Source of the DNA: Paracoccaceae bacterium
GTDB taxonomy: Bacteria > Pseudomonadota > Alphaproteobacteria > Rhodobacterales > Rhodobacteraceae
DNA length: 64,000 nucleotides
Direction of reading: 5' to 3'
Assembly (NCBI GenBank): GCA_021741245.1
Contig: JAIOYF010000002.1
Coordinates: 186,001 to 250,000 of the forward strand
Numbering within the stretch: position 1 is the first letter of the stretch; every line of letters begins with the position of its first letter. Below, one piece after another: positions 26,556 to 57,071 of the stretch. The notes under the pieces are model-generated. The model had not been told where the DNA came from and ran no database searches. It saw only the letters and a list, made by a program, of their open reading frames with translations. The position numbers and the translations under genes were made by a program.

Positions 26556-26570
26556 TTAAGCACCCGTTTA
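26556..26570. promoter_or_regulatory. CtrA-like binding site upstream of motB
   Basis: TTAA-N7-TTTA (one mismatch to the CtrA consensus TTAA-N7-TTAA), 46 bases before the motB start in a short spacer. CtrA control of alpha-type flagellar genes is well known in Rhodobacterales; binding here is inferred. Confidence 0.45.
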
Positions 26571-26616
26571 CAGAGATCTTGTAAATCTGGGAACGGGTGT
26601 GAAACATGGGTGTGTG

Positions 26617-27456
26617 ATGGCCGGGCAAGTAAATGCCGCGCCAGTCATCATCAAGCGTAAGAAAAACGTTATTAGCGGTGGTCACCACGGTGGGGCGTGG
26701 AAAGTGGCCTATGCTGATTTCGTGACGGCCATGATGGCCTTCTTCATGCTGATGTGGCTGTTGAACGCGACGACGGAAAAACAACGCAAGGGGATTGCGG
26801 ATTTCTTTAATCCGACGATTCCGGTGAACCGAATTTCTGGGGGGGGTGACGGCGCTTTTGGCGGTGACTCGGTGCTTTCCGAGGATGCGCTGGCCCAAAA
26901 TGGCACCGGGGCGACATCCGCCAGCCCCACCGAGCAAAAACAAGCGCGGGGCGATGACAGCGGCAAAACCAGCAGCGAAAGCGCCGAAGAGGCCAAACTG
27001 GCCGATGTGGAAAAGGCCCTTCTTGCCCGAAGTGGGGAGAGCATGACGATGGAACGCTTGTTGCGCCATGTCGTGACCCGCGTGACGGACGAAGGCTTGG
27101 TGATCGAACTTTTCGATCTGGAAAACGCGCGTCTGTTCAAAGGGGAAACCGCGGATCCTTCGGACCCGCTGCGCGAACTGGCGCAGGTTTTGTCCAGCGT
27201 GTTGGACGCCACGACGAATGAGATCGCAGTCAATGGATATGTCCGCAGCTATCCGACCGTCTTGCTGGAGAATCCGGTCTGGCCCCTTTCAAGCGACCGG
27301 TCGCAAGCCATGCGTGACCTGCTGATTGCCCAAGGCCTGTCAGACGAGCGATTTCAGCGAGTTTCCGGCTTTGCCGACAGAAAGCCTTTGACTCCAGACC
27401 CTTCGGTGATCCGCAACAACCGTTTGGAAGTGATCTTGCTGCGCCGCGACCGCTAG
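26617..27456 (+). CDS. motB: Flagellar motor stator protein MotB (alphaproteobacterial type)
   Basis: A 279-residue inner-membrane protein. The cytosolic N-terminus (KRKKNVISGGHHGGAWKVAY) leads into the single membrane helix ADFVTAMMAFFMLMWLL, where the Asp in YADFVTAMMAFF is the proton-carrying residue. A low-complexity linker (residues 70-140) precedes a C-terminal OmpA-like peptidoglycan-binding domain (IAVNGYVRSYPT, LSSDRSQAMRDLLIAQGL, NNRLEVILLRRDR). MotA is not in the window. ATG 26617 is used; upstream in-frame GTG codons (26599, 26614) are alternatives because no strong ribosome site is visible. It heads the motB-flgE-K-L-I block. Confidence 0.88.
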   Translation: MAGQVNAAPVIIKRKKNVISGGHHGGAWKVAYADFVTAMMAFFMLMWLLNATTEKQRKGIADFFNPTIPVNRISGGGDGAFGGDSVLSEDALAQNGTGATSASPTEQKQARGDDSGKTSSESAEEAKLADVEKALLARSGESMTMERLLRHVVTRVTDEGLVIELFDLENARLFKGETADPSDPLRELAQVLSSVLDATTNEIAVNGYVRSYPTVLLENPVWPLSSDRSQAMRDLLIAQGLSDERFQRVSGFADRKPLTPDPSVIRNNRLEVILLRRDR

Positions 27457-27479
27457 GGAAATCGATCAAATTGAAAGCA

Positions 27480-27494
27480 TTAGCTGGGCGTTAA
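27480..27494. promoter_or_regulatory. CtrA-like binding site upstream of flgE
   Basis: TTAG-N7-TTAA (one mismatch to TTAA-N7-TTAA), 58 bases before the flgE start in the 96-base spacer after motB. Confidence 0.45.
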
Positions 27495-27552
27495 TCGCCT
27501 TGATGCAGGGTGAGGCCACATAGCGGCATCTACCTGTAGAAAGGCGGTATCG

Positions 27553-28860
27553 ATGACGATTTCTTCCTCGCTGAACGCGGGCGTGGCGGGTCTGTTTGCG
27601 AATGCAACCCGATTGGCCACCATCTCGGACAACATCGCGAATTCTTCGACCTTTGGGTACAAAAGGGCTGCTGCCGAATTTGAAAGCATGGTCATTTCCA
27701 ATTCGCGGGGGGCAGGATCTTATTCTGCGGGGGGCGTGCGCGCCTCATCCTTGCGACTGATAGATGAACGCGGCTCCATCGTTGGCACGTCGAATGCGCT
27801 GGATCTTGCGGTATCGGGGCGCGGGATGCTGCCCGTGATGCCGGCGGTCTCCATTGGGGGGGGCGTCGGTGAGCAACCCTTGATGATGACCACCACAGGG
27901 TCATTCCGAACCGATCCCGATGGGGTCTTGCGCACCGAATCCGGTCTGGTGCTTTTGGGCTGGCCTGCAAATGCAGATGGGTCGATCTCTACTTTCCCGC
28001 GCGATACCGTGACGGGCCTGCAACCGGTTGTGATCAACGCCAACCAGACTGCGGGGGACCCGACGACTGTGATGGCCTTGGGCGTCAACCTTCCCGCGAC
28101 CGAAACAGAGGCCGGGGCCTCGGGTGAGGTTTTGCCGGTTTCGGTGGAATATTTCGGCAACCTTGGCACCTCGGAATCCCTCGACATCACCTTTACCCCG
28201 GTCGTTCCCGCGACGGGGTCCTCCAACAGTTGGACGATGGTGATCCGCGACAGCGCCTCGGCGGGCGCGATCATCGGGGAATACGACCTGACCTTTGACG
28301 ATACCCGTGGCGCAGGCGGCACACTGGCTTCGGTCACCGCGATTTCCGGGGGCGCGTATAGTGCCGTCGACGGCACCCTTGATCTGACGGTCGCCGGTGG
28401 CCCGATCACGATGACAATCGGCAAGCTGGCGGACCCCAATGGGCTGACCCAGCTTTCCGACAGTTTCGCCCCGACTGCGATCACCAAAGATGGCTCTCCG
28501 GTTGGCAATCTGATGGGGGTCGAGGTCGATGAAAACGGCTATATCATGGCCAGCTATGATACCGGATTCATCCGCCGCATCTATCAGATCCCTCTGGTCG
28601 ATGTGCCCAATGTCAACGGCCTGACCGCATTGAACAACCAGACCTATCAGGTCTCGACCGACTCGGGTTCGTTTTTCCTGTGGGATGCGGGTGATGGCCC
28701 CACGGGCAGCATCATCGGCTATGCCCGCGAAGGATCAACCACCGATGTCGCGGCAGAGCTGACGGCACTGATTCAGACGCAGCGGGCCTATTCCTCGAAT
28801 GCCAAGGTCATCCAAACCGTGGATGAGATGCTTCAGGAAACCACGAACATCAAACGTTAA
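27553..28860 (+). CDS. flgE: Flagellar hook protein FlgE
   Basis: A 435-residue axial protein polymerising into the hook. The conserved N-terminal rod/hook helix is SSSLNAGVAGLFANATRLAT followed by ISDNIANSSTFGYK. The C-terminal flg_bbr motif is ALIQTQRAYSSNAKVIQTVD and ends NIKR. The central domain (residues 100-370) is beta-rich, with GSFRTDPDGVLRTESGLVLLG. The sequence is of the alphaproteobacterial type. It begins a run flgE-flgK-flgL-flgI, the order I associate with CtrA-controlled Rhodobacterales flagella. The spacing of 15 bases to flgK indicates co-transcription. Confidence 0.94.
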   Translation: MTISSSLNAGVAGLFANATRLATISDNIANSSTFGYKRAAAEFESMVISNSRGAGSYSAGGVRASSLRLIDERGSIVGTSNALDLAVSGRGMLPVMPAVSIGGGVGEQPLMMTTTGSFRTDPDGVLRTESGLVLLGWPANADGSISTFPRDTVTGLQPVVINANQTAGDPTTVMALGVNLPATETEAGASGEVLPVSVEYFGNLGTSESLDITFTPVVPATGSSNSWTMVIRDSASAGAIIGEYDLTFDDTRGAGGTLASVTAISGGAYSAVDGTLDLTVAGGPITMTIGKLADPNGLTQLSDSFAPTAITKDGSPVGNLMGVEVDENGYIMASYDTGFIRRIYQIPLVDVPNVNGLTALNNQTYQVSTDSGSFFLWDAGDGPTGSIIGYAREGSTTDVAAELTALIQTQRAYSSNAKVIQTVDEMLQETTNIKR

Positions 28861-28875
28861 CCGGGGGGTTGAGGC

Positions 28876-30333
28876 ATGAGCATCTCATCCGCGCTTTCTT
28901 CGGCCCTCTCTGGCCTGACGGCGAATTCACGCATGGCCGAGGTCGCCGCTTCGAATGTTTCAAACGCGTTGACAGAGGGTTACGCGCGGCGAGAGGTCAA
29001 CCTTTCCTCTCGGTTCATCGGCATGACAGGCGTGGGCGTGACCATCAACGGCGTCACGCGTCATGTGAACCGGGGCTTGCTGCAGGATTTGCGCCTGTCA
29101 AACGCCAGTCTGGGCTCTCGGGATACCACCAAGGACTTCCTGCTCCAGTTTGAGAAAGCGCTGGGAACCCCGGATCAGGCAAGCTCTCTTTCCGGGCGGA
29201 TTGCGGCGTTGGAAAAATCCCTGATCGAAGCCGCCGCCCGCCCGGAATCAGAGGCGCGGCTGGCCGCCGTCGTTGATGCGGCGCGCTGGTTGACGCAAGG
29301 AATGACCGATACCTCAGACCAGATTCAACAGGCCCGCCAATCCGCCGATGCCAGCATCGCCCTACAGGTTGAACAGGTAAACAGCGCCCTTCGGGGTGTC
29401 ACCGACATCAATAAGAAGATCCGCGTTTCAACGGTGGCAGGTCAGGACACAACAGCCTTGATGGATCAAAGGCAACAGCTGATCGACCGAATTTCCGGCA
29501 TTGTCCCCTTGCGTGAGGTGGCCCGCGACAACGGTCAGGTCGCGCTCTACACCACCGGGGGAAGCATCTTGCTGGATGGCAGGCCTTCAATACTTGGCTT
29601 TACTGCAACAGGTTTCATCACCCCGGACATGACGCTTGCCTCGGCTGCGTTGTCAGGGCTGACGGTGAACGGACAAGCGGTCAGCACATCCCCCGCGGGC
29701 GGCAGATTGGGCGAGGGCAGCCTCTCTGCCCTGTTTGACCTGCGCGACCGCATCGCGCCGGAAAGCCAGATCCAGATCGACGCCATTGCCCGCGACCTGA
29801 TCGAACGATTTGAGACACCCGGCCTTGATCCAACCGCAATTCCCGGTGCTGCTGGCCTCTTTACCGACGACGGCGCGCCCTTTGACACCCTGTCCGAAAC
29901 TGGCCTTGCCGGGCGCTTGCGACTGACGGATCTGGTGCAACCCGAAAGCGGTGGCGCCCTGTGGCGGCTGCGCGATGGGTTGGGTGCTGCAAGCGCTGGT
30001 GCCCCCGGATATTCGGGCCAAATCACCGCTTGGTCTGGGGCGCTGACGGCAGCGCGTGCGCCTGCGTCGGGGGGATTTACAGCCGGGGCCCGCAAATTCG
30101 CCGATCTTGCATCGGAACTGGTCTCTTCTGTCACGGTTCGGCGCCTGTCGTCTGAGACCGAGGCCAGCTTTGCGACCGCACGGGCCGATGGGTTGCGCAC
30201 CGAATTGCTGCGCGACGGCGTTGATACAGATGATGAAATACAGCGCCTGCTGCAGATTGAGCAGGCCTATGCCGCCAATGCCCGCGTCATCCAGACTGTG
30301 GATGACATGATTCAGACCATTTTGGGGATTTGA
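28876..30333 (+). CDS. flgK: Flagellar hook-associated protein 1 (FlgK)
   Basis: A 485-residue hook-filament junction protein. The N-terminal helix is SSALSSALSGLTANSRMAEV followed by AASNVSNALTEGYARR, the FlgK-type N-terminus. The coiled region (residues 110-200) includes DINKKIRVSTVAG and DQRQQLIDRISGIVPL. The C-terminal flg_bbr motif is LLQIEQAYAANARVIQTVDD and ends QTILGI. A G-rich ribosome site (GGGGGG, seven bases upstream) marks the ATG. It overlaps nothing and is followed two bases later by flgL. Confidence 0.93.
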   Translation: MSISSALSSALSGLTANSRMAEVAASNVSNALTEGYARREVNLSSRFIGMTGVGVTINGVTRHVNRGLLQDLRLSNASLGSRDTTKDFLLQFEKALGTPDQASSLSGRIAALEKSLIEAAARPESEARLAAVVDAARWLTQGMTDTSDQIQQARQSADASIALQVEQVNSALRGVTDINKKIRVSTVAGQDTTALMDQRQQLIDRISGIVPLREVARDNGQVALYTTGGSILLDGRPSILGFTATGFITPDMTLASAALSGLTVNGQAVSTSPAGGRLGEGSLSALFDLRDRIAPESQIQIDAIARDLIERFETPGLDPTAIPGAAGLFTDDGAPFDTLSETGLAGRLRLTDLVQPESGGALWRLRDGLGAASAGAPGYSGQITAWSGALTAARAPASGGFTAGARKFADLASELVSSVTVRRLSSETEASFATARADGLRTELLRDGVDTDDEIQRLLQIEQAYAANARVIQTVDDMIQTILGI

Positions 30334-30335
30334 GC

Positions 30336-31340
30336 ATGACAATGGTATCCTTTGGTGACTTGGCGCAGAATTTCATGCTGCGCGCCCAGACCTCGCGCCT
30401 GAAAACTGACTCTGTCAGGATTGCGCAGGAATTGACCTCGGGCCGGTTGAGCGATGTCGGCGCGGCGCTGTCGGGCGACATGGGGCGGCTGTCGTCCCTC
30501 TCGCGCGTGCACCAGCTTTTGAATGGGTTTCAATCGGTTGCCAAGGATGCCGCCTTTCAATCCGCAACAATTCAGGGCGTCATTGGCTTTGTGTCCGAAA
30601 ACACCCAAGCCATGGTCGGCAGCCTGATCGGGGCCCCGCTAAACGGCAATGGTGATGTGCCCGCCCTGATCGGGGGCGAGGCCCGCTCTCGCCTGTCCGG
30701 TGTGCTTGAGGCGATGAATACCTCCTCCTCTGGCCGCACCTTGCTTGCAGGGACTGCCGTTGATGGACGTGCGGTCTCTGGCATGGATACCTTGCTCGGG
30801 GCGTTGCGAACGGAACTGGCCGGGGTCACGACCGCGGATGAGGCGATGACCCGCATTTCTGCTTGGTTCGATGCCCCGGCTGGCTATAGCAGCACCGTCT
30901 ATCAAGGCGGCCCCGCGCTGGAGGACCTGCCTGTTTCGCAAAATGATGCGGTCTGGCTTGGGGTTACGGCGGATGATCCGGCCTTTCGCAGCGCCCTGAT
31001 GGGCCTTGCGACAGCCGCTTTGGTCGATGATTCAGCGCTTGGATTTTCGGATCGGGAGCGCAAGGCCCTTGCCAATCGCGCGGGGGAGGCGATTTTGGGC
31101 GGGCAAGACAGTTTGGTCAGTCTCGCCGCCCGCCTTGGTGTCAGCGAAGGGCGGCTTGAAACCGTGCAGTCGCGCAATCAGGCGGAATTGCTCAGCCTTG
31201 AAATGGCACAGGCCGACCTTGTTGGATCTGATCCCTATACACTTGCCACAGAACTGGAGGCGGTCCAGACCAACCTTGAGATGGTGTATTCGATCACCGC
31301 TCGCATGTCGCGGCTGAACCTGACGGATTTCATCCGATGA
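30336..31340 (+). CDS. flgL: Flagellar hook-associated protein 3 (FlgL, flagellin family)
   Basis: A 334-residue protein of the flagellin/FlgL family. The N-terminal helix is FGDLAQNFMLRAQTSRLKTD followed by QELTSGRLSDV. The C-terminal helix is ELEAVQTNLEMVYSITARMS then RLNLTDFIR. It forms the second junction ring between hook and filament. ATG 30336 is preferred: the in-frame TTG at 30330 lies inside the end of flgK, and GGGG sits about nine bases upstream of the ATG. The stop overlaps flgI by ATGA. Confidence 0.88.
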   Translation: MTMVSFGDLAQNFMLRAQTSRLKTDSVRIAQELTSGRLSDVGAALSGDMGRLSSLSRVHQLLNGFQSVAKDAAFQSATIQGVIGFVSENTQAMVGSLIGAPLNGNGDVPALIGGEARSRLSGVLEAMNTSSSGRTLLAGTAVDGRAVSGMDTLLGALRTELAGVTTADEAMTRISAWFDAPAGYSSTVYQGGPALEDLPVSQNDAVWLGVTADDPAFRSALMGLATAALVDDSALGFSDRERKALANRAGEAILGGQDSLVSLAARLGVSEGRLETVQSRNQAELLSLEMAQADLVGSDPYTLATELEAVQTNLEMVYSITARMSRLNLTDFIR

Positions 31341-32479
31341 CCACAGTCCTTTCGTGCACTGTCCTGCGCCCGTTGCGCCATCTTTTGCCCTTGGTCGCGT
31401 CGTTCTTTCTGGTCTTTGCCGGGATGTCCGGGGCGGAGGAAATCCGGCTGAAGGATCTGGTCGAATTCGACGGGGTCCGCGGCAACGATCTGGTGGGCTA
31501 CGGCCTTGTGGTCGGGTTGAATGGCACAGGCGACGGGATCCGCAATGCCCCATTCACCGAAGAGATCATGTCAAACCTGCTGGAGCGTCTGGGTGTCAAT
31601 GTCGCGGGAGAGGCCTATCGCCCCAAGAACGTGGCCGCCGTATTCGTCACAGCGGAACTTCCGGCCTTTGCCCGCGCGGGGGGCCGCATTGATGTGACCG
31701 TGTCGGCCATTGGGGATGCCAAAAGCCTGCTGGGCGGAACCTTGGTGATGACCCCGATGAACGGGGCCGATGGGCAAATCTATGCCGTCGCACAGGGCAC
31801 CATCATCGCGGGTGGCGTCGTGGCCGAGGGCGATGCCGCGCGCGTCGTCCAAGGGGTGCCAACGGCAGGGGTGATCCCTGCTGGGGCACGGGTGGAGCGT
31901 GAGGTTGACTTTGATTTCACCACCCTCAATTCCTTGCGTCTAGCCTTGCGCAGCCCCGATTTCACCACCGCAGGCCGGATTGAGGCCAGTTTGAACCGCG
32001 AGTTTGGGCGCAGGGTTGCCACAATGCTTGATTCCGGCACGGTTGAGTTGGATGTGAATGCAGCCAACATGCGCTCACCGGCCCATGTGGTGGGGCGCAT
32101 TGAAAATCTGGCCATTTCACCGCAAATGCGGGCGCGTGTGGTGGTGGATCAGCGGTCAGGCACCATTGTCATCGGCGAAGATGTCCGGATCAGCCGTGTC
32201 GCCGTGGCACAAGGCAACCTCACCCTCAGGATCGAAGAGGCCCCCACGGTCGTTCAGCCGAACCCCTTTGCCGAGGGCGAGACCGTGGTGGTGCCGCGCA
32301 CCAATGCAAACATCAACCAAGAACCCGGAACGGGCCTTGCCGAGGTTACGGGTGGCACATCGCTGTCAGAACTGGTTGCGGGCCTGAACGCCCTCGGCGT
32401 CGCCCCGCATGACATGATCGACATCCTCAAAAGCATAAAGGCCGCAGGGGCCCTGCACGCCGAGTTTATCGTGAACTGA
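31337..32479 (+). CDS. flgI: Flagellar P-ring protein FlgI
   Basis: A 380-residue periplasmic protein forming the peptidoglycan ring. The signal peptide ends around AGMSGAEE (residue 34), and the mature protein begins IRLKDLVEFDGVRGNDLVGY. Other highly conserved FlgI parts are GLVVGLNGTGD, NVAAVFVTAELPAF, GTLVMTPMNGADGQIYAVAQ and the C-terminal DMIDILKSIKAAGALHAEFI. The length is typical (about 370). Translation is coupled to flgL (ATGA). It closes the alpha-type flagellar block; map follows on the other strand 20 bases later. Confidence 0.96.
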   Translation: MTTVLSCTVLRPLRHLLPLVASFFLVFAGMSGAEEIRLKDLVEFDGVRGNDLVGYGLVVGLNGTGDGIRNAPFTEEIMSNLLERLGVNVAGEAYRPKNVAAVFVTAELPAFARAGGRIDVTVSAIGDAKSLLGGTLVMTPMNGADGQIYAVAQGTIIAGGVVAEGDAARVVQGVPTAGVIPAGARVEREVDFDFTTLNSLRLALRSPDFTTAGRIEASLNREFGRRVATMLDSGTVELDVNAANMRSPAHVVGRIENLAISPQMRARVVVDQRSGTIVIGEDVRISRVAVAQGNLTLRIEEAPTVVQPNPFAEGETVVVPRTNANINQEPGTGLAEVTGGTSLSELVAGLNALGVAPHDMIDILKSIKAAGALHAEFIVN

Positions 32480-32499: not shown

Positions 32500-33309
32500 C
32501 TAACCCCAGGTTGGATGGAACTTGCCCGCCGGCGAGAGGGTAAAAATCTCGCAGCCCGTTGCTGTAACGCCAACCGAGTGTTCGAATTGGGCGGAAAGGG
32601 ATTTGTCACGGGTGACGGCTGTCCAATCATCGGCCAGCACTTTCGTTTCTGGACGCCCAAGATTAACCATAGGCTCGATGGTGAAAAACATCCCCTCTTC
32701 CAAGACAGCGCCACTGCCCGGACGGCCATAGTGCAAGACATTGGGTGGCGAATGAAAGACGCGTCCCAAACCATGGCCACAAAAATCACGCACCACACTC
32801 ATCCGATTGGCCTCGACATAGGCCTGAATGGCAAAGCCGATGTCGCCAAAGGTATTTCCCGGCTTAACCGCCGCAATCCCGCGCATCAGCGCCTCATGCG
32901 TGACTTCGATCAATCGCTCGGCCTTGCGGCCCAGATTGCCCGCGGCATACATGCGGCTCGTATCGCCAAACCACCCATCGACGATCACAGTCACGTCAAC
33001 GTTCAGAATATCGCCATCGGCCAGAACCTTTGCCCCGGGGATCCCGTGACAAACCACGTGATTGACCGAAATACATGAGGCGTGCTGATACCCCTTGTAG
33101 CCGATGGTGGCCGAGACCACCCCGCGCCGTTCAATCTCTTCCCGAATAAAATCGTCAATGACAGAGGTCGTCACCCCCGGCTTAACCAAGGGCGCCACCA
33201 TATCAAGGATCTCGGCCGCAATTTTTCCGGCCCGTTGCATGCCCACGAAATCGGAGTCTTCATAGATCCGAATGCCTTCGCGCGTGATGCGTCCGCGTGT
33301 GTCTTCCAC
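32500..33309 (-). CDS. map: Type I methionine aminopeptidase
   Basis: A 269-residue cytosolic enzyme that removes N-terminal Met from new proteins; it uses two divalent metals. Metal ligands are visible: Asp in DILNVDVTVIVDGWFGDTS, His in FCGHGLGRVFHSPPNV, Glu in MFFTIEPMVNLG and Glu in SAQFEHSVGVT. The GTG at 33309 is chosen as start (MEDTRGRITREGIRIYE) because AAGGAG lies six bases before it and this matches the family N-terminus; further upstream the frame has no family sequence. It stands between flagellar flgI and a molybdopterin-binding-like gene. Confidence 0.95.
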   Translation of the reverse strand: MEDTRGRITREGIRIYEDSDFVGMQRAGKIAAEILDMVAPLVKPGVTTSVIDDFIREEIERRGVVSATIGYKGYQHASCISVNHVVCHGIPGAKVLADGDILNVDVTVIVDGWFGDTSRMYAAGNLGRKAERLIEVTHEALMRGIAAVKPGNTFGDIGFAIQAYVEANRMSVVRDFCGHGLGRVFHSPPNVLHYGRPGSGAVLEEGMFFTIEPMVNLGRPETKVLADDWTAVTRDKSLSAQFEHSVGVTATGCEIFTLSPAGKFHPTWG

Positions 33310-33455
33310 CTGCCGCTCCTTCTGTCTTGACCCTAAATAGGCAAAACGCTTTGGATTGACCAGAGGCCGCCAGCATAACAAGGCACGCTGGGGGCTTTGA
33401 AAGCCTTGATCCGCGCCTTATACCCAGATTGGGAACCACGCAAAGGATGATGGGA

Positions 33456-34175
33456 ATGGCAAATCCAACCGCAGCGATGCTTGTGATCGGGGATGAGATC
33501 CTGTCCGGGCGGACCCGCGATTCCAATACGAACTTTCTGGCAGGCGAATTGACCCGCCACGGCATCCGCCTGATGGAGGCGCGCGTCGTCTCGGATGAGA
33601 TGGAGGCGATCATTGCCGCAGTGCGCGCCCTGAGCACGCGCTTTGACCATGTTTTCACCAGTGGCGGCATCGGGCCAACCCATGATGACATCACCGCTGA
33701 CGCGATTGCGGCGGCGTTTGAAACACCGATCACCCATCGCGCCGATGCCATGGCACTCTTGCAAGCGCATTATGATCGCAGCGGGATGGAGTTCAACGCC
33801 GCCCGCCAGCGTATGGCGCGCATCCCGGATGGGGCCATTTTGATCGACAATCCGATCAGCACGGCACCCGGCTTTTGCATCGGGAATGTGCATGTGATGG
33901 CGGGCGTTCCACGGGTGTTTGAGGCGATGGTCGCCTCGGTCTTGCCCACCCTTACCGGGGGAGATCCGCTGTTGAGCCAATCGTTGCGTGTCGACCGAGG
34001 TGAAGGGGATGTGGCCACGCCTTTTGCTGCCTTGGCGGCAGAGTTTCCCGATCTGACCATGGGCTCTTATCCCTTCAACCAAAATGGCGCGTTTGGCACC
34101 AATCTTGTCGTGCGTGGCACCGATCCGGCCCGGATTGACGCGGCCATGGTGCGTTTGGCTGGGCTGTTTGCATGA
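33456..34175 (+). CDS. Molybdopterin-binding (MoaB/CinA-N type) protein
   Basis: A 239-residue protein of the MoCF-binding fold, as in the N-terminal half of CinA. Motifs are LVIGDEILSGRTRDSNTNFL at residues 8-28 and VFTSGGIGPTHDDITADAIA near 65. Later segments fit the COG1058 group (GFCIGNVHVMAGVPRVFEAM). CinA's C-terminal deamidase domain is absent. The function of stand-alone members is uncertain; molybdopterin or nucleotide binding is family-based. ATG 33456 has AAAGGA eight bases upstream, and earlier in-frame ATGs fall in or near that site. It overlaps the GNAT gene by ATGA. Confidence 0.87.
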   Translation: MANPTAAMLVIGDEILSGRTRDSNTNFLAGELTRHGIRLMEARVVSDEMEAIIAAVRALSTRFDHVFTSGGIGPTHDDITADAIAAAFETPITHRADAMALLQAHYDRSGMEFNAARQRMARIPDGAILIDNPISTAPGFCIGNVHVMAGVPRVFEAMVASVLPTLTGGDPLLSQSLRVDRGEGDVATPFAALAAEFPDLTMGSYPFNQNGAFGTNLVVRGTDPARIDAAMVRLAGLFA

Positions 34176-34885
34176 TTTCCCCGGCGCTTCTGGCTGACGT
34201 CATGGCCGCGACTTGGCCTGCCGCCAGCGAGAGTCGGCTTGGCCCTTGGACCATTCGCGATGGTCAAGGTGGCGGTCAGCGCGTGTCTGCCGCAACGGCC
34301 GAGGGCGCGTGGTCGGATGAGGATATCCCCATGGCCGAAGAGGCCATGGCGCAGATTGGTCAGGGTCATCTTTTCTTGATACGTGCCCAAGATGCGCTTC
34401 TGGATCAGGCGCTTCAGGCGCGGGGCTATCGGATAAAGGACCCTGTCCTTGCCTATGCCGCACCAACGGGCCAGTTGGCTGACCCGGCCCCTGCGGGTAT
34501 GGCGGCCTTTGCCCATTGGCCGCCCTTGGCCATCTGCCGGCAAATCTGGGATGAGGCAGGGATCGGGCCTGCACGGCTGGCTGTGATGGACCGTGCAGCG
34601 GGGCCGAAATGTGCCATCCTTGCGCGCAGCAATGACCGGCCAACCGGGGTAGCCTTTGTCGCCCTGCACGGCACGACGGCCATGTTGCACGCCCTTGAGG
34701 TGGCCCCCACCGCCCGTCGGCAAGGTTCCGCGCACAATATGATGCGGGCAGCGGCTGTCTGGGCGCAACAAAACGGGGCAGACACGCTGTCTGTGGTGGT
34801 GACGGTCGCAAACACGCCGGCACGGGCGCTCTATGCTTCCCTGAAGATGGAAGTTGTGGGAGACTATCACTATCGGCAGAAATAA
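34172..34885 (+). CDS. GNAT-family N-acetyltransferase
   Basis: A 237-residue protein whose C-terminal part carries a GNAT core. ALEVAPTARRQGSAHNMMRA (about residue 170) is the acetyl-CoA-binding R/Q-x-x-G-x-A/G-like motif, and VTVANTPARALYASLKMEVV is the following helix with the conserved NxxAxxLYxxLGF-like pattern. The N-terminal 100 residues are less typical and may be a second, degenerate GNAT-like lobe. The substrate is unknown. It is co-transcribed and translationally coupled to the molybdopterin-binding-like gene. Confidence 0.82.
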   Translation: MISPALLADVMAATWPAASESRLGPWTIRDGQGGGQRVSAATAEGAWSDEDIPMAEEAMAQIGQGHLFLIRAQDALLDQALQARGYRIKDPVLAYAAPTGQLADPAPAGMAAFAHWPPLAICRQIWDEAGIGPARLAVMDRAAGPKCAILARSNDRPTGVAFVALHGTTAMLHALEVAPTARRQGSAHNMMRAAAVWAQQNGADTLSVVVTVANTPARALYASLKMEVVGDYHYRQK

Positions 34886-34918
34886 GCCCGAATTGGGCCA
34901 AAAAGGGCACGGCAACAC

Positions 34919-35911
34919 GTGGCAGGATATCGCAAATCGCTGGGCATGGCACTGGCTGCCTGGCTTGCCACATCGGTCGGCCATGCGCAGGCCCTGACAC
35001 TGCGTTTGCCCGAAACCGCCACACATGCCGCCGATCGCAGCGAAACCCTGACCTCATATGCCCTGCCGACCGGCCCGTTTTCTGACGGTCAAATCCCGAA
35101 CCAGCGGATTGAGGGGCCCATGACCCAGACCGCGTGGCGTATTGATACGCCGGGCCTGAGCACCCTTGAAATCCTTGCCCCCTTGCGCAGCCAATTGCTG
35201 GACGAAGGGTTTGCCACGCTTTTCGAATGTGGAACTGTGGACTGCGGCGGCTTTGATTTTCGCTACAACACCAGCATCCTGCCCGAACCTGAAATGCATG
35301 TGGACCTTGGCGATTTTCGCTTTCTTTCGGCCCGCAGGGGGGATGAGGCCGTCAGTCTGGTCGTCAGCCGCAGTTCTTCGGCGGGCTTTGTGCAGATGAT
35401 ACACATCGGCGGCACCGTGGGTGCACCCCCTGTGCTGACAGCATCGACCAAGGCCGGTGGTGGGGCGCAACCCGTGGCATTGGCCCGCCCGATTGTGGAC
35501 ACGGCTGAAACTGAGGGTGCGGCCGGACAGATCGGTGTGCGTCTGGTGGCGGGCGACTCGGTTGCTTTGGACGATCTGATCTTTGCCTCTGGCACCTCAA
35601 GCCTGAGCGAGGGGGCCTATGAGTCTTTGGCGGAACTCGCGGCATGGCTGACAGAAAACCCGGACCTGCGCGTGGCCATCGTGGGCCATACAGACGCCTC
35701 GGGCGGGTTGGAGGGAAATATCGCCCTCTCTCGCAAGCGCGCGCAATCCGTGCGCCAGCGGTTGATCGCCAATTACGCCATCCCTGCGGCCCAGATGGAG
35801 GCAGAGGGCGTTGGCTATCTGTCGCCCCGCGCCTCGAACGTGACAGAAGATGGGCGCCAGAAAAACAGACGGGTCGAAGTCATCATGACCTCGACCCAAG
35901 TTTCGCCCTAA
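34919..35911 (+). CDS. OmpA-family protein (exported)
   Basis: A 330-residue envelope protein. The signal peptide (MALAAWLATSVGHAQA within the first 27 residues) is followed by an unrecognised domain of about 170 residues that has a CGTVDCGGFDFRY segment with two cysteines. The C-terminal OmpA/Pal peptidoglycan-binding domain begins near residue 215 (LIFASGTSSLSEGAYESLAE, VGHTDASGGLEGNIALSRKR, NRRVEVIM). It probably links the outer membrane or periplasm to peptidoglycan. A GTG at 34919 is used as start because the signal peptide is then complete; ATG 34946 would give a shorter one. It converges on the LysR gene. Confidence 0.87.
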   Translation: MAGYRKSLGMALAAWLATSVGHAQALTLRLPETATHAADRSETLTSYALPTGPFSDGQIPNQRIEGPMTQTAWRIDTPGLSTLEILAPLRSQLLDEGFATLFECGTVDCGGFDFRYNTSILPEPEMHVDLGDFRFLSARRGDEAVSLVVSRSSSAGFVQMIHIGGTVGAPPVLTASTKAGGGAQPVALARPIVDTAETEGAAGQIGVRLVAGDSVALDDLIFASGTSSLSEGAYESLAELAAWLTENPDLRVAIVGHTDASGGLEGNIALSRKRAQSVRQRLIANYAIPAAQMEAEGVGYLSPRASNVTEDGRQKNRRVEVIMTSTQVSP

Positions 35912-35930
35912 GGGAACGCTCAGGCGGATA

Positions 35931-37460: not shown

Positions 37461-37486
37461 GGGGGCCATGGCTGGCCCCCTTATTC
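37461..37486 (+). terminator. Terminator of the EF-hand gene
   Basis: A perfect 8-bp stem (GGGGGCCA at 37461-37468 with TGGCCCCC at 37473-37480) and a 4-base loop, followed by TTATTC. It overlaps the end of convergent kdsB. Confidence 0.75.
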
Positions 37487-39115: not shown

Positions 39116-39119
39116 ATCC

Positions 39120-45188: not shown

Positions 45189-45205
45189 TGCAAATCCCAT
45201 GCCAA
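45189..45205 (-). promoter_or_regulatory. Sigma-54 promoter of the flhA operon
   Basis: On the minus strand TTGGCATGGGATTTGCA fits the -24/-12 consensus TGGCACG-N4-TTGCA with one mismatch (A-C to A-T in the -24 box) and exact GG-N10-GC spacing. It lies 90 bases before the flhA start. Confidence 0.75.
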
Positions 45206-45280
45206 TGGGGGGGACACGGCTTTGCATCACAGCGCTTTGGCGCAAAAAAACACGGCCCTGCCATGGGTTGGCCGGAAAGG

Positions 45281-45297
45281 TTGGCATGAGCCTTGCA
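45281..45297 (+). promoter_or_regulatory. Sigma-54 promoter of the flgP-flgT-flgA-flgM operon
   Basis: TTGGCATGAGCCTTGCA fits TGGCACG-N4-TTGCA with one mismatch and exact GG-N10-GC spacing. It lies 36 bases before the flgP ATG and points away from the minus-strand site at 45189-45205. Confidence 0.75.
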
Positions 45298-47870: not shown

Positions 47871-48194
47871 ATGGTAGAACCTGTTTCATATTCCGCTGGA
47901 AAAGCCCGCATGCAACGCGCAGGTGGGGAGAACACGAATCCAATCGGCAGCGCGGCAAATGGTGCATCAGCCCCATCGCGCCTATCAAATGCTGCCGCCG
48001 CCGGGGCGTCTGCAGAGATGCTGTCTATCAGCGCTGCGGCAAAGGGTCTGCCATCAGAGTTGAAGGCCGGCCCCCCGATAGATATCGAATCGGTCAACCG
48101 CATCCGCGTCGCGATCAGCGAAAACCGCTATCCGATTGACCTGAAAGCCATCACGGAAAGCTTGTTCCAAAGCTTTCTTGAAATTTCCCGCTGA
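47871..48194 (+). CDS. flgM: Anti-sigma-28 factor FlgM
   Basis: A 107-residue protein that binds and inhibits FliA until it is exported through the finished hook. A disordered Ala/Ser-rich N-terminus (residues 1-60) precedes the conserved C-terminal FlgM helices: PPIDIESVNRIRVAISENRY and PIDLKAITESLFQSFLE. A strong AGGAGG precedes the ATG. The gene lies in the flgP-flgT-flgA-flgM order. Together with fliA it makes a sigma-28 checkpoint, absent from typical alpha-type flagella. Confidence 0.87.
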   Translation: MVEPVSYSAGKARMQRAGGENTNPIGSAANGASAPSRLSNAAAAGASAEMLSISAAAKGLPSELKAGPPIDIESVNRIRVAISENRYPIDLKAITESLFQSFLEISR

Positions 48195-50510: not shown

Positions 50511-51581
50511 CTATGCGGAACGGCGCAACCAACGCACGCCCAACTGGGCGAGGGTGACTGCAAGAATGATCCGCGCGACGTGATGGACGGTGACATAGAT
50601 CACGCTCATCTTCAGGCTTAGCGCAATCAGGCTCATCTCGGCCAAACCACCGGGGGCAAAGGCCAGAAACACCGCCGCCACCGGCTCCCCCACAAGGGCA
50701 TGCAGGGTCAGCGCAAAGGCAAAGGCAATGGCCAGCGCAACGACGCCGTTGACCAATGCCAACACCCCGGCGCGCCGCATGAGCGACAGGTCAAGCCCCG
50801 CAAACCGGGCGCCAAGCCCTGTGCCCAGCACCACCTGCGTCATGCTGATCAACCACTGCGGCGGCACCCCTTCGACGAGTCCAGAGACATGCACCAAAGC
50901 TGACAGGGCCAGCGGCCCGGTAATGATCCCGGCCGGAATCCGCAGGGATTTGGCGATCAGCGCGCCGATGACGCCACAGGCAAGCAAGATGACCACGTCT
51001 TGAACCGACAGCGCCGCATCCGCCCCCGCCATCTTGACGCCCGAGGCGCTGCCCACGGCCTGCCCGGTCAGCGCCCAGAAGATTATCGGCACCGCAATGA
51101 TCGTCAGGATCAGGCGCAAGAACTGCAAAAGCGTCAACAGACCAACATTCGCCCCCGCCTCTTCGCCCAGTTGCACAGACTCGATCAAGCCACCGGGAAC
51201 GGCCCCGAAAAAGGCCGTCTCCCGCGACAAGCCACCGCGCAGATAGATAAAATACCCCACTGCATGCGCCACGGGGATAAACACCACCAGCGCAAGCAGG
51301 CTTGGCCCCCATTCCAAGGCCTCACGCGCGACAGCGGGGGTAAAGGCCCCGCCGATTGACACGCCGATCACGGGCACAAAAGACATGCGCAACCGCATCG
51401 GCATGTTGATCCCTTGGCCAAGCACGCGCCACCCCATCACCGCAGGCACCCCCACGGCGACCAGCGACCCCAGCAGATAGCCAAGCGGCAGATGCGCCAG
51501 ATGCGCAAGCATGCCGCCAAGTCCCCCCAGACAAAGGGTCATGGCAATCGCGAGTCCGTCCTTGGGCATCCTCAAATCCAT
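50511..51581 (-). CDS. AbrB-family (AbrB_dup) inner-membrane protein
   Basis: A 356-residue integral membrane protein of the family labelled 'AbrB/ammonia monooxygenase-like' (PF05145), which is not a DNA-binding AbrB. Two homologous halves each have about five helices: [20 protein letters not shown] (residues 18-40) with [11 protein letters not shown], and [20 protein letters not shown] near 215. [20 protein letters not shown] and [19 protein letters not shown] are the repeated signature loops. The function is unknown; transport is suspected. Its ATG overlaps the slyX stop as TGATG. It converges with the FliL-like gene. Confidence 0.87.
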
Positions 51582-51781
51582 CACCAATGCGGCGGCGGCA
51601 CATTTGCCGAAGGGGCCTCACCCGCGGTTGCCTCACGCTCGGCTTCGCGCTCGACCAGCAGACCAACCAGACGCGACAGGCGCGCGATCTCTTTTTGTTG
51701 GGCTGCCACGATGTCAGACACCTCATCCACCGTGCGGATCAGATGCGCCATGCGTTCTTCCATCACCTCAAACTTGTCCAT
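51581..51781 (-). CDS. slyX: SlyX family protein
   Basis: A 66-residue coiled-coil protein. [38 protein letters not shown] and the C-terminal PPPHW are characteristic of SlyX. Its function is unknown. ATG 51781 has AAGG about eight bases upstream; the frame extends to 51955 but without family sequence, and into the promoter of divergent hisS. Translation is coupled to the AbrB-family gene. Confidence 0.83.
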
Positions 51782-51953
51782 TCGACGGCCTTTCATGGCG
51801 GCGCGGGGGCGCGATGCTTGTGCCATGAAAGGAAGACGGGAAAACGACGCGCAGATCACTGCCGTTTTCCAGCCCGCCAGACGGACCGCCCGCTTGCTGA
51901 TACCTCCCCCATCCGTTACAGCAAGCACGCAACAGATCGAAGGGCTTCTTGCC

Positions 51954-53471
51954 ATGTCCGATGGAAAAAAATCTGACGGAAAGATCCGCCGCCCAAGGGC
52001 CGAGACGCCAAAGGGCTTTCGCGACTATTTCGGGGCCGAGGTCACCGAACGCCGCGCCATGCTGGAGGCGATCACCGCAGTCTATCATCGCTATGGCTTT
52101 GATCCGCTTGAAACCTCGGCGGTTGAGACGGTTGAGGCTTTGGGCAAGTTCTTGCCCGATGTCGACCGCCCGAATGAGGGTGTCTTTGGGTGGCAAGATG
52201 GCGAGGATGCCGATTGGCTGGCCCTGCGCTATGACCTGACCGCCCCTTTGGCCCGCGTCGCCGCGCAATTCCGCAACGACCTGCCCAGCCCCTATCGCCG
52301 CTATGCCTTTGGCCCGGTCTGGCGCAACGAAAAGCCGGGTCCGGGGCGGTTCCGTCAGTTTTATCAATGCGATGCGGATACGGTTGGCACGGCCTCGGTC
52401 GCGGCGGATGCCGAGATTTGCGCGATGCTGTCGGATGCGCTGGAAGTCGTGGGGATTCCCCGTGGCGACTATGTGGTCAAGGTCAACAACCGCAAGGTTC
52501 TGAATGGCGTGATGGAGGTGGCAGGCGTTCTTGATCCCACCGACCCGGAGCGTTTTGCCAATGAGCGCGGCATCGTCTTGCGCGCCATCGACAAGATCGA
52601 CCGCCTCGGCCCCGAAGGCGTCCGCGCCCTGTTGGGCGAGGGCCGGAAGGACGAGTCCGGCGATTTCACAAAGGGTGCGGGATTGTCGGCAGAGCAGGCC
52701 GAGGTTGTGATGGGGTTCACGACCGCAAAGCGCGAGTCAGGGACCGCAACGATTGCCCGCCTGCGCGAGTTGGTCGGAACCTCGGTCATCGGGGCCGAAG
52801 GCGTGGAAGAGCTTGAAACCATCGCGGCGCTTTTGGATGCCCAAGGCTATGGCCCAGACCGTATCCTCATTGATCCGGGTGTCGTGCGCGGCCTTGGCTA
52901 CTATACCGGCCCGGTCTATGAGGCGGAACTCACCTTTGAAATTCTTGATGAAAAGGGACGCAAGCGGCAGTTTGGCTCGGTCGCGGGGGGTGGGCGCTAT
53001 GATGACCTCGTCAAGCGCTTTACGGGCCAGTCGGTGCCAGCCACTGGCGTTTCCATTGGCGTTGACCGCCTGCTTGCCGCGCTGCACGCCAAGGGCCGGA
53101 TCTCTGGCGATACCACTGGCCCAGTCGTCGTGACGGTGATGGACCGCGACCGGATGGCCGATTACATGGGCATGGTCGCCGATCTGCGTAACGCGGGCAT
53201 CCGTGCCGAGGTTTACTTGGGCAACCCCAAGAACTTTGGCAACCAGTTGAAATATGCCGACAAACGCCAATCCCCCATCGCCGTGATCCAAGGCGGGAAC
53301 GAGGCCGAAAAGGGCACCGTGATCCTGAAAGACCTGATCCTTGGCGCGCAGATCGCGCAAAACGCCACGCTGGAGGAATGGAAGGATCGCCCCGCTCAGG
53401 TGGAAATTCCGCGCGCAGATCTGGTGGCGGAAGTGCAAAAGATGCTGGCTCAGGACTCATTGGCCCGATGA
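51954..53471 (+). CDS. hisS: Histidine-tRNA ligase
   Basis: A 505-residue class II aminoacyl-tRNA synthetase. Motif 1 region: [20 protein letters not shown]. Motif 2: [20 protein letters not shown]. The histidine-A motif region is [20 protein letters not shown], motif 3 is [15 protein letters not shown], and the anticodon-binding domain is at residues 395-500. It has the extended form found in alphaproteobacteria. ATG 51954 is chosen by family N-terminus and AAGGG ten bases upstream; the frame extends 180 codons back into the AbrB-family gene. It is the first gene of hisS-hisZ-hisG. Confidence 0.96.
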
Positions 53472-54562
53472 CCCCCAAAACTGCGATCCGGGCCGAGGCT
53501 GATGCGCTTTATGCCGCCATCGCGGCGACGGGGGCGGTCCCGGTTGAGGCCGACCTCCTCTTGCCAGCCGAAACCCTGCTGGACCTTTATGGCGAGGATA
53601 TTCGCGCCCGCGCCTATGTGACCCATGACCCGGTGCGCGGCGAAATGATGCTGCGCCCCGATTTCACGGTTCCCGTGGTGCAGGCCCATATGGCCCATGG
53701 CGCGGAACCTGCCCGCTATTGCTATATGGGTGAGGTGTTTCGCCAGCAATATCACGCGGGCCCGCGTCAAAGCGAATATGTGCAGGTGGGGTATGAGGTG
53801 TTTGACGGCAGCGATCCGTTGGCCGCCGATGCCGAGGTGTTTGCGCTGTTCTCAAAGATTCTGCAGCCGCTTGGCCTGCGGGCGGCCACCGGGGATACCG
53901 GCATCTTGCGCGCGGCGGTGATGGGCCTTGGCACGACCGAACGGCGCAAGGCGGCGCTGATGCGGCATTTGTGGCGACCAAGGCGCTTTCGTGCGCTGCT
54001 CGACCGTTTTGGCGGCCGCACCGCAATCAGCGAGGCCCGCCACAGCCTGTTGCAGATGCTGGACCGGGGCCAAGACCCTTGGGCAGGCGTTGCCCAAACC
54101 GGATTGCGGAGCCAGCAAGAGGTCAGGGAACGGATCGCCGCCCTGCAAGAAGATGCCGCCACCCCGCCGATCAGCGCAGACGAAGTGCAGCTTGTGGAAG
54201 CCGTTCTTGCCGTGGCCGACAAATGCCCGGCCGCCCTTGAAACGCTTGCGGCAATGGCGGGGCAAATGCCCGCCCTTTTGCCCGCCGTGGATCGCCTGAA
54301 GGCCCGGTTGAATGCCCTTGAAGCAAAGGGCATTGACGTGCAGGCGCTGGACTTTGAGGTCAGCTATGGGCGCACGACGATGGAATATTACGATGGGTTT
54401 GTCTTTGGCTTTTATGCCGATGCAGCCGCCGATTTGCCCGCCGTGGCCAGTGGCGGGCGCTATGATGCGCTGACGGCCGTTTTGGGCCAAGGCCGCTCGA
54501 TCCCCGCCGTGGGCGGGGTGATCCGCCCCGCATTGGTTGCCCGGCTGAAGGGGGGCTTGTGA
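53468..54562 (+). CDS. hisZ: ATP phosphoribosyltransferase regulatory subunit HisZ
   Basis: A 364-residue HisRS-like protein lacking synthetase function. It binds the short HisG and gives it activity and histidine feedback. HisRS-like motif 2 region: [21 protein letters not shown]-terminal class II part: [18 protein letters not shown], then [17 protein letters not shown] and [10 protein letters not shown]. It overlaps hisS by ATGA and hisG by TGATG. Pairing of hisZ with a short HisG is the expected two-subunit system. Confidence 0.95.
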
Positions 54563-55299
54563 TGCTGAAGATCGGGGTGCCGTCCAAAGGGCGGCTGATG
54601 GAGAAGACCTTTGAATGGTTCGGCGCGCGCGGGATCACCATGCGCCAATCCGGGGCCGAGCGTGAGTATGCGGGCACCGTCGAAGGCATTGACGGCATTG
54701 AACTGGTGATGCTGTCCGCAGGTGAAATCCCGCGCGAGTTGTCGGCGGGCCGGATTCACCTTGGCGTGACGGGCAGCGATTTGGTGCGCGAAAAGCTGGC
54801 TGATTGGGATCGGCACGTGCTGGAACTCTCGCCCCTTGGCTTTGGCCATGCCGATCTGATCATCGCGGTGCCAACCGGTTGGGTGGATGTGGATACGCTG
54901 GAGGATCTGGACGCGGTCGCGGCACAGTTTCGCCGCACGCATGGCCACCGATTGCGGATCGCCACCAAATATCACCGTCTGGTGCGCGAGTTTCTGACCG
55001 CGCAGGGCGTCGCCGACTATCAACTGGTCGACAGTCAGGGTGCCACCGAAGGCACGGTGAAGAACATGACCGCCGAGGCCATTGCAGACATCACCTCATC
55101 TGGGGAAACGCTGCGCGCCAACCACTTGAAGGTGCTTGCGGATTCGCTCATCCATCCATCACAGGCCGTGCTGTTCCTGTCCCGTCAGGCAGATTGGGCC
55201 ACAGCGGCGCAGGCCACGTGTCAGCAGCTTTGCAGCCGCCTTGGCATCGTGTCACCACATCTCGACGATATTGAATTCCCTACGTCAGCTGGCCTTTGA
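54562..55299 (+). CDS. hisG: ATP phosphoribosyltransferase, short form
   Basis: A 245-residue catalytic subunit for the first step of histidine synthesis (ATP plus PRPP). Signatures are IGVPSKGRLMEKTFEWFGAR, GIELVMLSAGEIPRELSAGR, HLGVTGSDLVREKL and the PRPP-binding VDSQGATEGTVKNMTAEAIA. The regulatory C-terminal domain of long HisG is absent, agreeing with hisZ next to it. ATG 54562 follows GGGGG by six bases; a GTG one codon earlier is less likely. Confidence 0.95.
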   Translation: MLKIGVPSKGRLMEKTFEWFGARGITMRQSGAEREYAGTVEGIDGIELVMLSAGEIPRELSAGRIHLGVTGSDLVREKLADWDRHVLELSPLGFGHADLIIAVPTGWVDVDTLEDLDAVAAQFRRTHGHRLRIATKYHRLVREFLTAQGVADYQLVDSQGATEGTVKNMTAEAIADITSSGETLRANHLKVLADSLIHPSQAVLFLSRQADWATAAQATCQQLCSRLGIVSPHLDDIEFPTSAGL

Positions 55300-55345
55300 A
55301 TCGCGCAGTGGATGCTGTACCTTGGCCTTGGTACAGGAGCCTGAG

Positions 55346-55717: not shown

Positions 55718-55807
55718 AATTTCAGGGGGTCCTGCCGTCTGGCATGGGCCTTGCACCTCTGGTTCACGCCCTGAAAGGGCAGTTGTTTATGTGAACCGGA
55801 AAAGAAT

Positions 55808-56002: not shown

Positions 56003-56210
56003 CCAATCTGATCACAAAGGCCGGAATGGCCACCATCGGCACCAACACTCCAAAAACCTCGGGGGGGGGCAGACGCGCCCCCAGACCAGAGGCGAGAGAT
56101 GGGAAAAACGCCATAAGGGCGACCAAGGGCAGTGCCACCATAAGATACAGCCGAACAGTCAGACACCGTCGGCAAGGTGGTGACTGACGTCTTTTGCGTG
56201 GCGCTTGCAT
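55974..56210 (-). CDS. Small two-helix membrane protein in the fliS unit
   Basis: A 78-residue protein with a basic N-terminus (MQAPRKRRQ) and two hydrophobic segments: LYLMVALPLVALMAFFPSL, and VFGVLVPMVAIPAFVIRLV. It ends RWHRAGRP. It starts six bases after the stop of the preceding gene, without a clear ribosome site. Family unknown. It may be translated by coupling from the fliS transcript. Confidence 0.45.
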   Translation of the reverse strand: MQAPRKRRQSPPCRRCLTVRLYLMVALPLVALMAFFPSLASGLGARLPPPEVFGVLVPMVAIPAFVIRLVRWHRAGRP

Positions 56211-56215
56211 CTGGG

Positions 56216-56551
56216 TCAAAGCGGAAGCCTTTCAACCGTGCGATAGGTTGCACGCGCATCAGTGGCGGCACCCGCACCCCGCGACACAGAGGCCGCGTCC
56301 AAGCGCATCAAGGCTTGCCCGATCATGTCCAGAGCCTGCTGTGCAAGACGATCTGTGCCCGCAAGTTTCATGCGGTCAGCCTCGGCGAAGAGGTCGTGTA
56401 GGTCTTTCGTAGCCGTCAGGATCTTGCCTGCATCATCCGCATCCAGACTTGTCTGAACACGGGCGATCGCCCCCAGCAAAGAAATCTCAAGCCCGCTGTC
56501 CACGATCACGGTGCTATCCCACCTCAAACTTTCGTCGGCATGCTCTGCCAA
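56216..56551 (-). CDS. FliT-like small helical protein downstream of fliS
   Basis: A 111-residue all-helical protein: LLGAIARVQTSLDADDAGKI, LHDLFAEADRMKLAGTDRLA, then QQALDMIGQALMRLDAASVS. Its start overlaps the fliS end by 28 bases, so it is translated with fliS. In many flagellar loci the gene after fliS encodes the chaperone FliT. Sequence similarity is too low for me to confirm this, so the call rests on position, size and helicity. Confidence 0.55.
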   Translation of the reverse strand: MAEHADESLRWDSTVIVDSGLEISLLGAIARVQTSLDADDAGKILTATKDLHDLFAEADRMKLAGTDRLAQQALDMIGQALMRLDAASVSRGAGAATDARATYRTVERLPL

Positions 56552-56907
56552 GCTGACAGGATCTCGCCAATGTAGGTATGCGACGCACCAAGCTGTGCGC
56601 CCTTGTCACGTTGGAAGGCCGCGATCAGTTGAAGGCGCACAAACTCATACACCCGGAAAAGGTTATCTGCGATTTCGCCGCCCTTTTCAAAATCAAGGCT
56701 CGATTGCAGCACATAGACCGCGGTCAGCCCTTTGGTCACATGCGCCGCAGCATACCGCTTTCCCTCGGTCTGGGCTGCCACCAAGACGGCCAGCGATTTG
56801 TGCAATTCACGAAGGGTGACCGACACAATCTGATGCGGATCGGTTAGTTCGGGCACTGTGCCCTCTTCGGCGCGACGGTATTGTGATCTGGCGTTAAGAA
56901 AGCTCAT
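56524..56907 (-). CDS. fliS: Flagellin export chaperone FliS
   Basis: A 127-residue four-helix chaperone binding the flagellin C-terminus. FliS landmarks: LTDPHQIVSVTLRELHKSLA near residue 20, VLQSSLDFEKGGEIADNLFR with the SLD-x-x-KGGEIA-x-NL core, and VYEFVRLQLIAAFQRDKGAQ. The 149 bases between fliS and the cheA gene contain a sigma-54 promoter. FliS is typical of gamma-type and enterobacterial systems and unusual in CtrA-type alphaproteobacterial flagella. Confidence 0.88.
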   Translation of the reverse strand: MSFLNARSQYRRAEEGTVPELTDPHQIVSVTLRELHKSLAVLVAAQTEGKRYAAAHVTKGLTAVYVLQSSLDFEKGGEIADNLFRVYEFVRLQLIAAFQRDKGAQLGASHTYIGEILSAWQSMPTKV

Positions 56908-57055
56908 CTTTTGGTTCCCTAAACCGAAATTGACGCGGTTTCACACATGATTTCAATATGATACCGCCCACTATGTATCACGCAGCCATCTGTCATCGCG
57001 TAGGTTCAGATACGACCATCTTTCCAAGATGTTTACCGGACGAACCACTTGTGAC

Positions 57056-57071
57056 GCAAAATTCGTGCCAA
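57056..57071 (-). promoter_or_regulatory. Sigma-54 promoter of fliS
   Basis: On the minus strand TTGGCACGAATTTTGC matches TGGCACG-N4-TTGC exactly. It lies about 150 bases before the fliS start, just after the cheA stop. Confidence 0.82.

Follow-up and report, generated by a model that had tools for sequence, protein, structure and literature searches.

A five-gene block of an ancestral flagellar set adjoins a Fla1-type flagellar island in a Paracoccaceae genome

Introduction

The closest described systems are the two flagella of Rhodobacter sphaeroides, Fla1 and Fla2, and the flagellar pairs of its relatives, in which an ancestral system (fla1 in the naming of PMC12363192) is joined by one of the R. 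sphaeroides Fla1 type (fla3 in that naming). The dual fla1/fla3 state was found in 14 of 306 Rhodobacterales (PMC12363192). The additional system is described as recruited from other alphaproteobacterial orders (PMC12363192) and, for R. sphaeroides Fla1, as probably derived from an ancestral gamma-proteobacterium (PMC7277832). Here we describe a window of 64,000 nucleotides (contig C11, positions 186001 to 250000, of genome G000, whose assembly totals 4.2 Mb in 27 contigs) from an R. sphaeroides relative with photosynthesis genes, in which the flagellar genes motB-flgE-flgK-flgL-flgI lie close to a second flagellar block. How do two such blocks come to adjoin, and do they belong to one flagellum or to two?

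Two flagellar sets in one genome

This genome very probably encodes two flagellar systems, both apparently complete and both of known type, whose junction lies in the window. The initial annotation had read a stretch of the window as parts of two different flagellar systems, and each core gene it named is present more than once: FlhA in the window and at C2:16101-18065, FlgI in the window and at C11:284156-285205, FliF at C11:255290 and at C1:202248, and FlgE in each set, the copy in the window block being named by position. Genes were named from Pfam and NCBIfam scans, and otherwise by position or by match to genome G046. The reaction-centre M chain of G046 matches PDB 4v9g, an R. sphaeroides entry, across 308 of 308 residues, and on this basis we take G046 to be R. 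sphaeroides. The M chain of G000 itself matched no PDB chain below 1e-170. The domains of the five-gene block were confirmed at 26599-32479, and the block is of the ancestral Rhodobacterales (Fla2) type, in agreement with its earlier reading as a block of alphaproteobacterial flagellar style. The block from 41 kb, earlier called gamma-type, proves to be gamma-like and of Fla1 type, with fliA (by position), flgT, a long flgA and flgM confirmed and flgP just below its cut-off; flhA within it had gone unnamed. The fliS gene that had been added to this second system corresponds to a FliS-like protein whose match lies well below the cut-off. The gene content, the separation of FlhA and FlgI into two lineages and the conserved gene order carry this reading, under which one system, on three loci, would be of the R. 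sphaeroides Fla2 type and the other, on one island, of the Fla1 type.

The island spans about 69 kb (C11:226.2-295.7 kb), extends about 46 kb beyond the window and encloses a 5-kb abrB-his segment. Its core comprises fliE-F-G-H-I-J-K-L-M-N-O-P-Q-R-flhB, RpoN, a flagellin, motA, motB, fliD and two sigma-54 activators, and continues with flgL, flgK and flgJ-I-H-G-F-E-D-C-B, followed by genes for a hybrid kinase and for a response regulator; the island also has its own FliA/FlgM and chemotaxis genes. The names of island fliH, flgF, flgC, flgB (unscanned), fliJ and fliO come from position and match to G046. Two island proteins are long for their kind, the flagellin with 806 residues (L007:197-2617) against 489-493 in several relatives and FlgK with 1351 residues (L007:9796-13851). 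The ancestral set is split over three loci, namely C1:197.5-205.3 kb, C2:0.6-18.8 kb and the five-gene window operon. The C2 piece holds flgD, flgJ, flagellin, flaF, flbT, fliI, flgB, flgC, fliE and fliQ, followed by flgF, flgG, flgA, flgH, fliL, flhB, fliR and flhA, and the C1 piece holds motA, fliL, fliF, fliH (by position only, with no match), fliN and fliP. The ancestral set thus includes flaF, flbT and the motBflgEKLI operon.

Several null results weigh against two complete and separately controlled sets. In genome G000, PF02154 matches the island FliM only; the same family finds no FliM in the island-less genome G122, and its one match in G046 lies in the island. No ancestral FliG was seen in the three pieces, no genome-wide FliG search being made. 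On the island side, the scan of fliJ gave no Pfam match and fliO fell below its cut-off. Finally, the strict full CtrA site TTAA-N7-TTAA is absent from the window, a weak test because only 0.03 such sites are expected there by chance. Since ancestral FliM and FliG were not recognised, the completeness of the ancestral set is only partly demonstrated.

Could the two blocks instead form one hybrid flagellum, or swap parts? The blocks lie 8.7 kb apart (flgI to sigma-factor gene, about 9 kb in the initial annotation, with map and Kdo genes between them as described), their adjacency is repeated in the congeners G405 and G408, and the missing ancestral fliG and fliM leave room for use of the island switch. 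However, recognised FliM is also lacking in G122, which has no island, and flhA, flgI, fliF, flgK, flgL, motA, motB and flagellin are all present in both sets as separate copies. Moreover, the block genes match Fla2 of G046 and the island genes match its Fla1, and the neighbours of the block are the same in G122. A hybrid is for these reasons very improbable, and the earlier suggestion that closeness could allow cross-talk or gene exchange finds no support, as no gene swapped between the sets came to light and the block keeps its neighbourhood in a genome without the island. We conclude that the closeness of block and island probably reflects rearrangement rather than a joint unit.

Regulation of the two sets

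By analogy with R. sphaeroides, the two sets would build different flagella under separate control, by CtrA for the ancestral system and by RpoN and sigma-28 for the island. CtrA control of flgE2 is described in R. sphaeroides (PMC6180460). Sigma-54 promoters had been proposed for the second block from the window alone, where strict sites show no excess (4 against 2.25 expected, a count reached in 24 of 100 shuffles). What does stand is the divergent pair in the gap between flhA and flgP, which recurs in relatives: all 8 genomes compared have a site pointing toward flhA, and 7 of the 8 have one pointing toward flgP. Over 164 kb, 15 sites of the form TGGC-N7-TTGCW were found. Of the 10 that are intergenic, 9 lie in the island, which makes up about 42% of the 164 kb; intergenic DNA makes up 8%.

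Phylogeny and distribution

Of 128 FlhA sequences extracted, 77 were used for the FlhA tree, with 29 of 80 genome-contig loci kept by hand for spread. The window FlhA falls in a 37-row alphaproteobacterial group (Shimodaira-Hasegawa-like approximate likelihood ratio test (SH-aLRT) 100) that includes one identical pair and lies next to gamma- and beta-proteobacterial sequences, and the C2 copy falls in a 14-row Fla2 group (SH-aLRT 100). In a more careful tree of 23 rows, a 9-row clade (100/99) unites the window copy with the congeners G405, G408 and G403 and with G046/G375, G095, G242 and G395, and thus includes the Fla1 copy of G046. A FlgI tree of 20 rows separates block from island copies (100/100), no gamma FlgI for it having been found in the fetched flanks. 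For both proteins, therefore, the two copies part, one siding with the Fla1 and one with the Fla2 of R. sphaeroides, the outcome that the initial annotation had named as support for two systems. The island gene order is the same in G046 and G095. Two further observations concern the FlhA tree. In family member G124 (L121), the best FlhA match (41%) sits on a long branch that belongs to neither type and may represent a third kind of flagellum. Within the alphaproteobacterial FlhA group, L014 (SAR116) and L015 (another alphaproteobacterial record) carry an island-type FlhA followed by FlhF and FlhG-like genes.

In an even sample of 395 genomes of the family, each at least 90% complete, window-type FlhA occurs in 29 including our own; the other 28 copies are 56-72% identical, and the next best matches reach at most 43%. 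At least 15 of these 29 genomes have a second FlhA match, two candidates being scored per genome. A 60% identical FlhA relative lies on a 118-kb plasmid of Octadecabacter arcticus. Within the genus, window-type FlhA is found in 5 of 16 genomes, of which 6 are not both more than 90% complete and less than 5% contaminated, and the ancestral FlhA type is found in all 16. This last count bears on a further possibility, that the five-gene block is a relic of a decayed flagellum, as its detachment from the remainder of its set might suggest. All five frames are open and the set is otherwise largely present, which, together with the retention of the ancestral type throughout the genus, makes a relic likewise very improbable.

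History of the island within the genus

The island-less congener G122 carries the five-gene block with the same neighbours, largely collinear over about 45 kb, and synteny stops after the LysR gene. Its kds, abrB and his genes form an unbroken run on a contig other than that of the block, from which it follows that the island in our genome sits in two parts, one (part A) at kdsD/abrB and one (part B) after his. The ancestral set of G122 is already in three loci. Detachment of the block looks derived, for it stands next to fliP of the main ancestral cluster in genomes G228 and G003 and is two genes away from fliP in G046. The order block-LysR-kds-island recurs in G405 and G408; in G405 the his genes again lie within the island, and the G408 contig stops before that point. 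A reciprocal inversion behind the LysR-kdsB junction was considered and is not claimed, the supporting gene pair being only 48-62% identical.

Was the island gained at the kds-his site, or lost from it? No rpoB match was found in the G000 assembly despite its completeness rating of 99.79%, perhaps through a gap in the assembly or a stretch missing from the data, and PheT was taken as the species marker instead. The PheT tree covered six of the 11 island-less congeners; these six and G395 make up a single clade (94/92), with G405 beside it (89/88). In the tree of the ancestral FlhA (FlhA2), 9 of the 11 form one clade with G395 (90/92), and G401 and G402 fall outside. The preferred reading is that the island-free site of G122 more likely stems from loss of the island in that clade. 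The alternative, which we regard as possible and on balance doubtful, is a gain in the common ancestor of G000, G405 and G408, with G122 preserving the untouched site. It would account for the contiguity of kdsD, abrB and his in G122; the grouping of G000, G405 and G408 is not rejected by approximately unbiased (AU) tests (p 0.075 for PheT, 0.22 for FlhA2); and in the FlhA2 tree island-less G401 and G402 (82-85% complete) are not part of the derived island-less clade, so that loss requires more than one event or missing data. However, the best PheT tree places G405 beside the tested island-less species, and island part A of G403 is bordered on the right by the his side and on the left by a different flank, one shared with G095, of another genus, so that the island looks older than the junction.

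A different version of the island was observed at another site in the congener G395 (C1:708-771 kb, L228-L231). PheT places this genome within the island-less clade, but its FlhA clusters with that of G242 (99/98), and a single clade for the five FlhA rows of the genus is rejected (AU p 0.018), a hypothesis set after the first tree was viewed. The simplest reading is that the G395 island is a separate acquisition.

A degenerate FlhF beside FlhA

The gene that follows flhA had been called flhF-like, and only part of this holds: its first 75 residues match the FlhF model TIGR03499, at 32.9 bits, far below the curated cut-off of 174.15. No FlhF above that cut-off was found in any of 7 genomes searched. 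The window protein keeps the P-loop (G1) and has lost the G2, G3 and G4 motifs, and the R. sphaeroides copy is likewise degenerate. The open reading frame (ORF) after flhA was read in 37 alphaproteobacterial islands, of which 35 were aligned (one repeating G236); G301, with no FlhF gene, and G380, at a contig end, were excluded. In G301 (L103, L318) fliA directly follows flhA. The controls were 71 of 76 other loci with an ORF of at least 300 residues and a P-loop, so that their G1 column is a product of selection. DTxG is present in 0 of 35 islands and 69 of 71 controls, and the G2 residues D and R are each present in 0 of 35 islands against 68 and 71 of 71 controls, respectively. The G4 lysine persists in 15 of 35 islands (68 of 71 controls) and the P-loop lysine in 32 of 35.

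The partner FlhG follows FlhF in 13 of 36 readable islands, and a KGGxGK motif follows it in 56 of 68 readable controls; in the adjacent position, to which the search was confined, none was found in the window or in R. sphaeroides. On the FlhA tree, with five gamma rows checked, the loss of FlhG amounts to two changes. All 13 FlhF with adjacent FlhG have TK[LT]D and none of the 22 without it do; G289 and G296, without FlhG, have NKCD at this position. A tie between the loss of FlhG and the loss of TKxD was considered and set aside, as there are only two independent events (sign test p 0.5). The window protein is predicted to adopt the NG fold of signal recognition particle (SRP) GTPases (predicted local distance difference test 86.3, predicted template modelling score 0.68), in a model whose alignment held five canonical FlhF sequences that may help the fold. 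Three of its four best PDB matches are FlhF, 2px0 and 8r9r first, and the rest are mostly Ffh/FtsY kin, with a template modelling score of about 0.5 by query.

What might this mean for the placement of the flagellum? With somewhat less than even confidence, we suggest that a polar-placement switch decayed on or after entry into the alphaproteobacteria, with the FlhF motifs lost and FlhG lost twice, and that FlhF perhaps serves only as a basal-body scaffold. If so, a decayed FlhF might help to explain the off-pole Fla1 flagellum of R. sphaeroides, and it makes the placement of a single off-pole flagellum testable in that species. That flagellum is reported as medially located (PMC7226244) and as subpolar (PMC7277832), and both flagellar types are also reported as polar (PMC12363192). 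In Vibrio alginolyticus, FlhF fails to reach the pole when it carries some GTPase-motif mutations, yet GTPase-inactive mutants in V. alginolyticus and V. cholerae still localise or assemble normally (PMC7226244), so that loss of hydrolysis alone need not shift the flagellum. Decay of FlhF in this Fla1-type group is not mentioned in the literature titles and abstract openings searched, which leave subscription literature largely uncovered, and it might be the part that a specialist would not expect.

Other features of the window

The features of the window are collected in Table 1. The gap between the blocks holds map, CinA-like, GNAT, OmpA and LysR genes and the kdsB/kdsA/SIS-CBS genes. Among the island chemotaxis genes, a ParA-like ATPase (62380-63114) adjoins a HAMP-domain chemoreceptor (60254-62383). 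At the start of the window, two proteins (19-1518 and 3087-4706) combine Hint_2 with bacterial Ig domains; their N-termini are similar, and one counterpart was seen in G122.

Table 1 Coordinates of the features in the window and the evidence for each
Feature	Position	Strand	Evidence
motB, ancestral set (R. sphaeroides Fla2 type)	26599..27456	+	PF13677 (MotB_plug) 7e-19; 66% to G046 gene before flgE2
flgE (hook protein), ancestral set	27553..28860	+	PF06429/PF00460 rod/hook domains; named by position; 63% to G046 Fla2 copy
flgK, ancestral set	28876..30333	+	PF22638 (FlgK_D1)
flgL, ancestral set	30330..31340	+	PF00700 (flagellin-C); NCBIfam PRK06008 below cut-off
flgI, ancestral set	31337..32479	+	PF02119 2e-134; FlgI tree
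map, CinA-like, GNAT, OmpA, LysR genes	32500..36818	.	order identical in G122 C8; G122 synteny stops after LysR
kdsB, kdsA, SIS-CBS (KdsD/KpsF-like) genes	37481..40112	-	directly adjoin abrB-his in G122
gene at island border	40235..41173	+	no Pfam match; similar genes at same place in G046, G375, G095, G405, G408, G395
fliA (sigma-28 by position; sigma-70-family match), island part A	41170..41898	-	63% to G046
FlhF-derived protein, degenerate GTPase motifs	41895..42914	-	TIGR03499 over residues 1-75 only; model, PDB 2px0, 8r9r
flhA, island part A	42946..45099	-	PF00771; trees
divergent sigma-54-type sites, flhA/flgP gap	45189..45297	.	strict motif scan
flgP-like lipoprotein	45333..45896	+	LPP20 25.4 bits, cut-off 25.9; 49% to G046
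flgT	45987..47111	+	PF16548 (FlgT_N)
flgA, long form	47105..47848	+	PF13144 (ChapFlgA)
flgM (anti-sigma-28)	47871..48194	+	PF04316 25.3 bits, cut-off 25
abrB-like, hisS, hisZ, hisG: host genes between the two island parts	50511..55299	.	contiguous with kds genes in G122; segment limits also given as 50511-55709
fliS-like gene near start of island part B	56524..56907	-	TIGR00208 5.6e-5, well below cut-off
island chemotaxis: CheA-type kinase, chemoreceptor, ParA-like ATPase	57074..64000	-	Pfam
CheY-, CheW-, CheB-like genes	within 57074..64000	-	named from sequence and position

Comparison with known systems

The finding is mostly ordinary, in that pairs of this type are already known from related species; the new details are the rearranged, three-piece ancestral set and the turnover of the island within a genus. 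With it, a genus that carries photosynthesis genes joins the bacteria in which an ancestral and an acquired flagellum occur together. This genus, with the island detected in 5 of 16 congeners and not in the other 11, suits the study of how a whole machine is gained, lost and regained.

The FlhF-derived protein resembles the SRP-type GTPase FlhF (2px0, 8r9r) in its N-terminal region, its predicted NG fold and its place after flhA, and differs from it in lacking the G2, DTxG and G4 motifs and an FlhG beside it. Fla1 and Fla2 of R. sphaeroides, as seen in G046, are the same two types, with the same island order including flhA-flgP-flgT-flgA-flgM, che genes, RpoN and the activators. Unlike the arrangement here, the fetched ancestral part of G046 is contiguous (3.07-3.10 Mb), the island lies far off (1.74-1.80 Mb) and no his genes lie inside it. 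The pairs described in PMC12363192 share the dual fla1/fla3 state, and in that work motBflgEKLI is already apart from fliFHNP, by 108 genes in D. shibae and by 2 genes in C. sphaeroides. In contrast to those cases, the ancestral set here occupies three loci with the motB operon adjoining a fla3-type island, and two different fla3-type versions occur inside one genus. Moreover, whereas no conserved fla3 subtrees above genus level are described there, the 9-row FlhA clade that includes the window copy covers four genera.

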